64,000 bases of DNA from Cognatishimia activa (GTDB lineage Bacteria; Pseudomonadota; Alphaproteobacteria; Rhodobacterales; Rhodobacteraceae): positions 1,054,001-1,118,000 of the forward strand of contig NZ_CP060010.1 in the NCBI RefSeq assembly GCF_017798205.1, read 5' to 3'. Numbering within the stretch: the stretch's first letter is position 1; every line of letters begins with the position of its first letter. A program made the position numbers and the translations under genes. Positions 56,715 through 59,395 of the stretch are shown piece by piece. The notes under the pieces were generated by a model. The model saw only the letters and a list, made by a program, of their open reading frames with translations. It was not told the origin of the DNA and did no database searches.

Positions 56715-57305
56715 TCAATCACGTCCGACATGTGCATCGACCAATCTCTGGACGCGTGGTGCGAAATGCCGAAAATCCGGCGTTTCCATGCCAGCCACTT
56801 TACCAGCTTCGTCTAGATAGCGGATCGCAATAATTTGCTTGAGGTTGGGATTCTTTTCGAACTCGGCCACCTCCGTGTCGCTCATAGGACCGCCTTGCAG
56901 GTTCAATGAATGCACCGAGGCCTCTGACAGACGATCAAAGTAGGACGGCTTCGTCGCACAAAGGTATCTTTTCGCGGCCACGTGATAGCGGCAGCAATCG
57001 GTCACAACCGACGGGAAAAACCTTTCGAGAATCTCGGCACCGGCGTCTTCATGGTGCCGGTCTTCGGTGTCATCCATCGTGAAACTCCCGAACTCGGAGG
57101 TGAAATGGCCGATATCGTGCAAGAGCGCCCCCACGATGATTTCGTCCGGCTGGCCGTTCTGTTCTGCAATGGTCGCCCCCTGCAGCATATGCTCGCCCAT
57201 CGTGACCTCTTCGCCGAGGTATTCCTCAGACCCGCGGCGCTCAAAAATCGAGGCAAGGAATTCAACAATAGTGTCGGCGGTCAGATCTTGTCTTGGTGTG
57301 GTCAT
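56715..57305 (-). CDS. tmpB: Mixed-valence diiron HD-domain oxygenase TmpB (PhnZ-like)
   Basis: 196 residues from the ATG at 57305 (GGAGG 7 nt upstream; overlaps the tmpA stop as ATGA). Seen: residues Y29, E32, H39, H63-D64, H84/H85, H108 and D165. Their spacing (+3, +10, +34/35, +56, +79, +136 from Y29) matches the PhnZ set Y24, E27, H34, H58, D59, H80, H104, D161 recalled from the family. The early Tyr and Glu are absent from ordinary HD phosphohydrolases and mark the C-P cleaving oxygenases. Inferred: splits 1-hydroxy-2-(trimethylammonio)ethylphosphonate into glycine betaine and phosphate. Likely mislabelled as phosphohydrolase by default tools. Confidence 0.82.
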
Positions 57306-58438
57306 TCCGCGGCCTCCTGTGTCGAACGCAATAGCGCGTCGCGGGTTGAGCGTAACCCGTCTTTGTCGGCGTAGCACCCCTGCAACCAGCGCGTGCCGGT
57401 CCCGGAATAGGCCTTGCGTGCATGAAGCACCCGCGTGTTGTCCACCACAAAGGCCTCACCCGGCTCTAGGCGGAAGACGACCTCCATCGCTGGGTCGTCA
57501 ATGATCTCACCTAACCGACGATAGGCGGCATACCAGAGTTCCATTTTGTCGAAAGGGACATCGGTCACTGCGGCCAAAGAGCGATTATTAAATCGCACCC
57601 CGATCAATTCTCCGTCCGGTGCGAGTTCGATCAAGGGGCGACGCGATGTCAGGCAAACACCCGCTTCACCCGAATACTCAAACCGCGCGCAATATTGCGC
57701 CAGCACGTCAAAATACTCTGGATTTTCCTCTTGCAGACGACGGACGCAGGCAAAGCCGTCTACCACCATATTCTCGCCCCCGGCTGCGGAGCTTTCTAAG
57801 CAATAGAGTACCTGAACCGTCGGAACCGGATCGCGATAAGGATTGTCGGTATGGGCCTGGAGCCCCAGTCCCGTGAACGCCAAATTCGTCGGGTTCACTT
57901 CGGTACGCACATCAAAGTGTTTGCCGTAGTTGGTTTCGCGCACAAAGCCAAAGAAGTCGACCACTTGAAACAGAGCACCCTCTTGGATCGGGCCACCTGT
58001 GATTTTGCCGAACCCAAACCGGGCGACCTGCTCTACCCACTGCGCCAAGGTTGCACCATCCTCAGACAGAGACTGAAATGCGGCAGTGGGAACATCGGCC
58101 TGCAACCCTGCATCCCAGACCGAAATCTCATCGGACAGCCAGCCGATATCAGCGCGCGCCTTGATGTCATAGGCATGTGCAATCAGCCATTCGACGCTGA
58201 AGGCCACGCTCTTTTGTTCGGGCGCGAAGGTCACATGCACCATGGTTTCACCGCCCTCGACGGACGCAATGCGTGTGTTGTCCGGAATGTCGCGCAGTGC
58301 AATCAGACGCTGACCATTCCCAGGCGCGCGCGTTTCATCGTCTTGCGCATTGTCGCGCAGCCAGATTGCATGAAACCGCAACTCTGCCTCAGCGTGGAGC
58401 GTTAGAAAGCGTCCTTCCTGGTCCATTGTAACATGCAT
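57302..58438 (-). CDS. tmpA: Fe(II)/2-oxoglutarate dioxygenase TmpA (GBBH-like fold)
   Basis: 378 residues from the ATG at 58438 (AGGA 8 nt upstream). Seen: N-terminal DUF971/GBBH domain with [20 protein letters not shown], where the zinc-binding cysteines of gamma-butyrobetaine hydroxylase are lost. Then a TauD-type barrel with iron ligands His196-x-Asp198 ([13 protein letters not shown]) and His339 (VLHARKAY), and a 2-oxoglutarate Arg near 350 ([14 protein letters not shown]). Known: TmpA hydroxylates 2-(trimethylammonio)ethylphosphonate at C1, and is routinely annotated as GBBH. The immediate HD-oxygenase partner favours TmpA over carnitine synthesis. Confidence 0.8.
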
Positions 58439-58543
58439 GAGCAAAATCCTACTGCTGAGTGACGTGAACAATGTCTTTACGATGCGCCGTACAAAACCAT
58501 AAACTCAAATAATAAATGACTCACATGAGGGGCGTTTTACTTT

Positions 58544-59395
58544 ATGGATAACACCTCCTATTCCCTGCCGCCCTTGGAATGGGTGCGCGCGTTTGAAGCC
58601 GCCGCGCGTCTTGGCAGCTTTACCGCTGCTGCCAGCGAAACAGGCCTGACCCAACCCGCGATCAGTCAGCGGATTGGACAACTGGAAAAACATCTGGGGA
58701 CGCGACTGTTTGTCCGCAAAGCGCGAACGATCACTTTGACGGTTGAAGGGGAAACTTGGCTGCCACATGTCCAAACAGCGCTTCGCGGGCTGAGCGACAG
58801 CTCAGAAACGCTGTTTGCACGGGGTAGACGTCGTTTAACGATCTCGGCCAGTCAGTCGGTGATTTCCCTTTGGCTCGCCACGCGGTTGGGTCGCGCGAGC
58901 GCAGACACTGGCGCGGAGATTTCGGTTCAATCCTATATTTTGGGTGGCCAGACCGCGACCGAGGATTCCACTGTTCAAATCAGATATGGAGCTGGCGATT
59001 GGGCGCATCCTTTTCAAACTCCTTTGTTTAAAGAAGCCATCGCACCGGTTTGCGCGCCCCGTCTCACCTCCCAAGCATGGACGCGATTGCCCCGCATTGC
59101 CTGCACCGGGCCGCGCCCGGATTGGGATCAGTATTCCACCAGATTCGGCATTCCCTCCACGCCGGTTCCAACCCTACGGTTCGACACATTGCACGGGGCG
59201 ATTGCAGCCGCCAAGGCAGGGCTTGGAGTTGCACTTGTTTCCCTTCCCCTCTGCGCCGAGGACATCGCCAGCGGCGCTCTCGTTCAGTTGGGGGACGAGG
59301 TTCTCGACCCACCCGAGACCTATTGGTTGCTCGCGTCACGAAATGTCATAGGGCACCGCCAATGGACGGCGCTTTCGGCGGCTTTAACCGCCTAA
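58544..59395 (+). CDS. LysR-type regulator (GcvA-like), divergent from tmpAB
   Basis: 283 residues. Seen: winged HTH, residues 9-67, with FEAAARLGSFTAAASETGLT and QPAISQRIGQLEKHLGTRLF, then the two-part ligand domain. Its closest look is to GcvA and choline-sulfate-cluster regulators (RYGAGDW, GLGVALVSLPLC). 105 nt separate its start from that of tmpA; T-N11-A type sites occur but none stands out. Probably the activator of tmpAB, sensing the phosphonate or a product. Confidence 0.88.
   Translation: MDNTSYSLPPLEWVRAFEAAARLGSFTAAASETGLTQPAISQRIGQLEKHLGTRLFVRKARTITLTVEGETWLPHVQTALRGLSDSSETLFARGRRRLTISASQSVISLWLATRLGRASADTGAEISVQSYILGGQTATEDSTVQIRYGAGDWAHPFQTPLFKEAIAPVCAPRLTSQAWTRLPRIACTGPRPDWDQYSTRFGIPSTPVPTLRFDTLHGAIAAAKAGLGVALVSLPLCAEDIASGALVQLGDEVLDPPETYWLLASRNVIGHRQWTALSAALTA

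Follow-up and report, generated by a model that had tools for sequence, protein, structure and literature searches.

The window, i.e., the whole stretch of 64,000 nucleotides from Cognatishimia activa that was analysed, carries two overlapping genes on the minus strand and a divergent regulator gene, with the following features.

56715–57305, minus strand: tmpB, predicted HD-domain diiron (R)-1-hydroxy-2-(trimethylammonio)ethylphosphonate oxygenase, 196 aa (NF049941, match to 6NPA, residues)
57302–57305, minus strand: ATGA stop/start overlap of tmpA and tmpB (sequence)
57302–58438, minus strand: tmpA, predicted Fe(II)/2-oxoglutarate hydroxylase of 2-(trimethylammonio)ethylphosphonate, 378 aa (NF049936, match to 6NPB, residues)
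58439–58543, no strand: region between tmpA and lysR that includes a conserved AT-rich stretch around ATTTGAGTTTAT, candidate operator (alignment)
58544–59395, plus strand: divergent LysR-type regulator, candidate TmpR (Pfam HTH_1, LysR_substrate)

The open reading frame of the HD gene, taken mechanically, starts at 57377, further upstream than the gene is likely to begin; the ATG at 57305, which is coupled to tmpA, agrees with the homologs and was preferred.

The dioxygenase contains the Pfam domains TauD and GBBH-like_N and was scored at 590.8 bits by the TmpA equivalog model NF049936 of NCBIfam release 20 (cut-off 400), and at 386.8 bits, below the cut-off of 414.75, by the gamma-butyrobetaine hydroxylase (GBBH) model TIGR02409. 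The latter is a weak divide that cannot by itself decide between GBBH and TmpA, since its cut-off is exceeded by three tmpB-linked relatives. The TmpA/TmpB pair of Leisingera caerulea (PDB 6NPB/6NPA) goes back to Rajakovich et al. 2019, as cited in PMC10574752 and PMC8177086. Its TmpA is the best solved relative of the window dioxygenase (E 1e-148), with 221 of 365 positions identical (60.5%), whereas the identity to human GBBH (BBOX, 3MS5) is 28.3%. The iron facial triad HxD...H is formed by H196, D198 and H339. In Leisingera TmpA the phosphonate is held by N187, N287 and R288, human GBBH having the two Asn residues without the extra Arg, according to a passage in PMC9296572. All three are kept in the window protein, where they align as N185, N285 and R286, and the Arg was present in 75 of 75 rows, i.e., the window and all 74 TmpA matches of the 77 tmpB loci from named genomes. 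Human GBBH has Ala at this position, and 11 of 12 GBBH-like orphans have His; the Arg is also found in the remaining orphan (L115) and in two of three second copies (L188 and L190), in pockets that are otherwise different, while the third second copy (L150) has Phe. The Cys, Cys, Cys and His positions of human GBBH, which we take to be its N-terminal zinc site, are A31, D33, T36 and K76 in the window protein, so that the earlier note was right to describe the coupled upstream gene as a GBBH-fold Fe/2OG dioxygenase without the zinc cysteines. Another position, presumably part of the aromatic cage, is F188 in the window protein and Tyr in Leisingera, Phe being common there in other tmpB-linked TmpA rows. 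The whole window genome holds this one tmpA over the cut-off.

The HD protein reached 350.2 bits with the TmpB equivalog model NF049941 (cut-off 300, same release), and fell below the cut-offs of the Phn-HD model TIGR03276 (201.4 against 214.6) and of the hydroxymethylphosphonate dioxygenase model (154 against 300). Its best solved relative is TmpB 6NPA (phmmer E 3.2e-103), to which it is identical at 151 of 187 positions (80.7%). A PhnZ-type Y..E...H..HD..H..H..D set, including the Tyr and the Glu, had been read from the letters before, and alignment to Leisingera TmpB and PhnZ confirmed it: Y29, E32, H39, H63–D64, H67, H85, H108 and D165 match one-to-one, the Leisingera equivalents being Y30, E33, H40, H64, D65, H68, H86, H109 and D166. 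The HD ligands and the YxxE loop are thus present, with H67 as an additional conserved residue; the ligand motif and the loop (Y30/E33) of Leisingera TmpB are described in PMC8177086. Of the 45 aligned TmpB rows, 44 keep all nine motif residues, and only the odd protein L058 departs from them.

Both proteins were placed in trees. The 56 rows of the TmpA tree comprised 37 of the 74 TmpA matches of the named-genome loci, thinned by list place (33 two-gene loci, three fusions and L191, with L136 omitted as partial), together with the window, 6NPB, human GBBH, DfmD, three second copies and 12 orphans. The 33 two-gene loci, the window and 6NPB formed one clade of 35 rows (100/99), which is separate from human GBBH, from DfmD and from the 12 GBBH-like orphans that come from the same family. 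A clustering of the dioxygenase with GBBH, named in the earlier note as the outcome that would speak against the pair, did not occur, although the human enzyme is the only certain GBBH in this tree, since all 12 orphans lie below the GBBH cut-off, and human GBBH and DfmD are the only characterised outsiders. Long branches make the deeper branching order uncertain. In the TmpB tree (45 rows: 41 of the 77 loci, the window, 6NPA, PhnZ and L058, with L180 omitted as short), the window falls into a group with rows from Roseibium, Pelagimonas and Thalassovita (99/93), and this group is nested in a clade of 31 rows that contains 6NPA (100/96). Given the long branches of PhnZ, L058 and L192, this tree is usable only for placing the window with 6NPA and its relatives, and PhnZ-like rows are unreliably placed in it.

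Judged from sequence, the pair would be an authentic TmpA–TmpB operon that turns 2-(trimethylammonio)ethylphosphonate (TMAEP) into phosphate and glycine betaine, a reading to which we assign a probability of about 0.95. TmpA would hydroxylate C1 of TMAEP using Fe(II), O2 and 2-oxoglutarate, and TmpB, as a mixed-valent diiron HD oxygenase, would cleave the C–P bond of the (R)-hydroxy product, releasing phosphate and glycine betaine. The name TmpA/TmpB, proposed earlier in preference to GBBH/phosphohydrolase, has held, since both curated equivalog cut-offs were passed and the rival models stayed below theirs; the proposed alignment to characterised enzymes likewise found the ligands, the YxxE loop and the phosphonate Arg in place, and both proteins grouped with the crystallised Leisingera enzymes. 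That the dioxygenase is instead a gamma-butyrobetaine hydroxylase of carnitine synthesis, next to an unrelated phosphohydrolase, could be argued from its GBBH-like_N and TauD domains, from a TIGR02409 score near a cut-off that three tmpB-linked relatives surpass, and from the GBBH name borne by a plasmid ortholog. It is nevertheless very improbable in view of the clearly exceeded TmpA cut-off and the separate clade, the loss of every Cys and His of the human zinc site, R286 in place of the Ala of the human enzyme or the His of 11 of the 12 orphans, and the YxxE loop in TmpB. Carnitine genes had been reported as absent nearby, and in fact no carnitine-specific NCBIfam model reached its cut-off among the 13 window proteins scanned (three plus ten, the ten with matches listed to E 1e-20 only).

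The chemistry and folds would also suit a PhnY*/PhnZ pair specific for AEP or methylphosphonate, and PhnZ (4MLM) matches the window TmpB at E 1.3e-29, but this is the least probable reading of all: the Phn-HD and hydroxymethylphosphonate scores fall short, TmpB is 80.7% identical to 6NPA, and its partner, a GBBH-like protein, has 60.5% identity to TmpA. A slightly larger, still very small chance is left to a pair adapted not to TMAEP but to a related phosphonate, N-methylated or with a longer chain; about 40% of the TmpA positions are unlike Leisingera and one likely cage position has changed from Y to F, yet the three named phosphonate-binding residues are retained and many other tmpB-linked rows also have Phe at the cage position. 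For the window pair as TmpA–TmpB, the analysis shows the identity of the genes, their residues and clade, their coupling and a neighbourhood that recurs, while activity, stereochemistry, regulation and uptake route are inferred. The suspicion that default annotations mislead stood in part: it is fair for plasmid records, where all five annotated orthologs (of seven records, two being without annotation) carry generic or GBBH names, namely “TauD/TfdA family dioxygenase”, “gamma-butyrobetaine dioxygenase” and “HD domain-containing protein”, and it has been overtaken by NCBIfam release 20.

The coupling of the two genes recurs widely. A TmpA match adjoins or is fused to tmpB in 74 of the 77 named-genome loci, with an ATGA or GTGA junction in 60, another arrangement in 11 and one fused frame in three; the three loci without an adjoining TmpA are L184, which is cut by a contig end, L192, which has a Phn-HD-type protein, and L193. 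An opposite-strand LysR match accompanies 51 of the 77. Of 295 genomes sampled from the family, 38 exceeded the TmpB cut-off, the window genome among them; phylum-wide 14 of 398 did so, eight of them in the same family and six in a single further family of this class. In 40 family-sample stretches, i.e., those of the 38 genomes and two weaker matches, tmpA lies beside tmpB in 38 (the exceptions being L042 and L058), and a divergent LysR match lies upstream in 19. No tmpA match was seen within about 10 kb on each side of tmpB in L042 (genome G036), or within about 6 kb in L193. The tmpB of G036 is over the cut-off and the best GBBH/TmpA-like match of that genome has an E of 3.2e-4, so tmpB can occur apart from tmpA. 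A ureidoglycolate-lyase-like gene (~222 aa; L134:6579–7244 and 13 other loci) lies directly 3′ of tmpB in 12 of the 14, and follows a URO-D-like gene in the fusion loci L189 and L190. A type I phosphodiesterase-like gene (~275 aa), which follows either tmpB or the ureidoglycolate-lyase-like gene, was found at L120:7263–8090 and in seven other loci, as well as at L204:5134–5979, its frame being split in L147; it is speculation that its product could free the phosphonate from an ester. A search of the window genome for these downstream accessory genes of relatives, the ureidoglycolate-lyase-like gene included, gave weak partial matches only.

The LysR gene had been noted as divergent from the pair, which is correct, and its product contains HTH_1 and LysR_substrate domains; GcvA is its best NCBIfam model, below the cut-off. 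Its position suggests a role in the control of tmpAB, probably through substrate induction, as Murphy et al. proposed for LysR proteins adjoining 2-AEP genes (PMC8316502). The AT-rich block between lysR and tmpA is conserved when the window is aligned with 11 chosen relatives and is a candidate operator. A strict motif derived from this alignment has a single occurrence in the window (58499, minus strand), and both strands of the 51 lysR loci together gave 13; all 13 occurrences lie between lysR and tmpA, and 38 of the 51 loci lack it. With what we take to be the Pho-box consensus, no such site was found near tmpAB, the window scan giving 2 matches against 4.28 expected, so a role in phosphate starvation is without sequence support; this is a weak test, since the scan of the C–P lyase region was likewise at chance level. 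Scans of 56600–58700 for sigma-70 promoters and terminators gave no matches.

The genes appear to have moved. TmpB matches were found in 28 plasmid records, seven of them at at least 68% identity, and the lysR–tmpA–tmpB unit occurs on two plasmids, one from Labrenzia and one from Aliiroseovarius, among quite different surrounding genes. In a second type of locus, tmpAB is flanked by genes for a zinc alcohol dehydrogenase and an enolase-superfamily (MR_MLE) protein, and the dehydrogenase gene is preceded by an MFS gene (Pfam assignments). Among the 40 family-sample stretches the dehydrogenase and enolase genes were each found in nine and the MFS gene in eight, none of them in the 19 stretches with a divergent LysR; among the 77 named-genome loci the counts were three, three and two, and two of these three loci (L169 and L172) do have a LysR. 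The window genome (G000) contains the same block at 2.2106–2.2306 Mb of contig C1 (L210), in a stretch without any TmpA or TmpB match, and its dehydrogenase and enolase are 81% and 76% identical to those of L040. At the empty site (L210:6966–9325, ~2.217–2.220 Mb of C1) the dehydrogenase and enolase genes are adjacent, about 60 bases apart, and the window tmpAB with its LysR lies more than 1 Mb from this block. Because the site occurs with and without tmpAB, the pair moves, by gain or by loss at this site. No tmpAB copy was confirmed in viral_contigs. One Pseudomonas phage record (OQ658365.1) has at its end, at 61049–61570, an unannotated HD-oxygenase-like match (43.8%), which may be host DNA.

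Uptake had been guessed to lie elsewhere, and this fits the finding of phnCDEE about 1.27 Mb away: phnC, phnD, two phnE, phnG, phnH, phnK and phnM were over their cut-offs at ~2.386–2.398 Mb of C1, and phnI and phnJ were recognised there by eye, without an NCBIfam match at E 1e-40. The genome further encodes one BCCT carrier, one OpuAC-type protein and the MFS protein of the L210 block, and the PhnCDEE, BCCT or OpuAC system is a possible entry route for TMAEP. No transporter family tied to the lysR-type loci was seen; a PotA-like ATPase occurs in seven of the 77 named-genome loci, at scattered positions. Two candidates were rejected. The MFS gene of the second locus type recurs with its whole block, which exists without tmpAB in the window genome, so it need not be functionally linked to the pair. 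The PotG/PotF-like genes at 49428–51716 were considered as a phosphonate importer; their best models are of the polyamine type, with potA passed and PhnT2 below its cut-off. They belong to a polyamine-type island (49428–56687) of PotG/PotF-like ABC, GntR-like regulator, glutamine-synthetase-like, aminotransferase and FAD oxidase-like genes. As for the product, betaine is plausibly used through six MTTB-family proteins of the window genome, which are possible sinks; the family is that of MtgB (PMC12478193). On the other side of the locus, another LysR-type protein of 400 aa (62144–63346, plus strand), with two HTH_1 stretches ahead of one substrate domain, is divergent from a cluster at 59430–61946 that encodes a 4-oxalomesaconate tautomerase, a CHA aldolase and a PIG-L protein.

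In three marine MAGs, two of uncultured Gammaproteobacteria and one of a Candidatus Thioglobus, TmpA and TmpB form one polypeptide (L188:4807–6558, L189:4843–6561, L190:4849–6558). The fused frame has about 570–585 aa, with about eight residues between the TmpA- and TmpB-matching parts, and all three fusions keep the active-site residues, including the phosphonate Arg. The substrate of the L188 fusion is less sure, since it passes both the TmpA (428.6, cut-off 400) and the GBBH (478.5, cut-off 414.75) models and misses that of TmpB (259.9, below 300). A URO-D-like protein is encoded 3′ of all three fusions, followed in L189 and L190 by a ureidoglycolate-lyase-like protein, with a second TmpA-like gene some 5 kb downstream. 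A fungal PhnY–PhnZ fusion, PhoF, is known (PMC10574752); among the open-library matches listed no bacterial TmpAB fusion was found, which does not prove its absence.

A broader picture may be offered tentatively, with the odds somewhat against it: tmpA–tmpB would be a small unit that moves horizontally, in most cases accompanied by a substrate-induced LysR but by no transporter of its own, that enters different chromosomal and plasmid sites and gives betaine and phosphate whatever the phosphate status, the same route being present in marine gammaproteobacteria as a single fused TmpAB beside a URO-D/methyltransferase-like protein. The TmpA–TmpB system itself is an already described pathway known from marine bacteria, both structures and the Leisingera host being covered in PMC10574752 and PMC8177086. 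The window adds one more one-contig genome for it, and the Arg after the second Asn is a simple residue check that helps to separate TmpA from GBBH in default-annotated records.

Compared with Leisingera caerulea TmpA/TmpB, the window pair has the same two-gene operon, folds, ligands, phosphonate Arg and YxxE loop. It differs from the five Leisingera-type loci (L134, L135, L138–L140) in its ATGA overlap, tmpA there stopping just ahead of the tmpB frame, in a LysR that is 37–39% identical to theirs, and in having no ureidoglycolate-lyase-like gene behind tmpB. The order of reactions, an Fe/2OG hydroxylase followed by an HD diiron oxygenase, is that of PhnY*/PhnZ, but the substrate of the latter is 2-AEP and the window TmpB lies below the Phn-HD cut-off. 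With human GBBH the window TmpA shares the fold, the Fe ligands and the aromatic positions, whereas the identity is low (28.3%), and the Cys3His zinc site and the Ala at the Arg position belong to the human enzyme.
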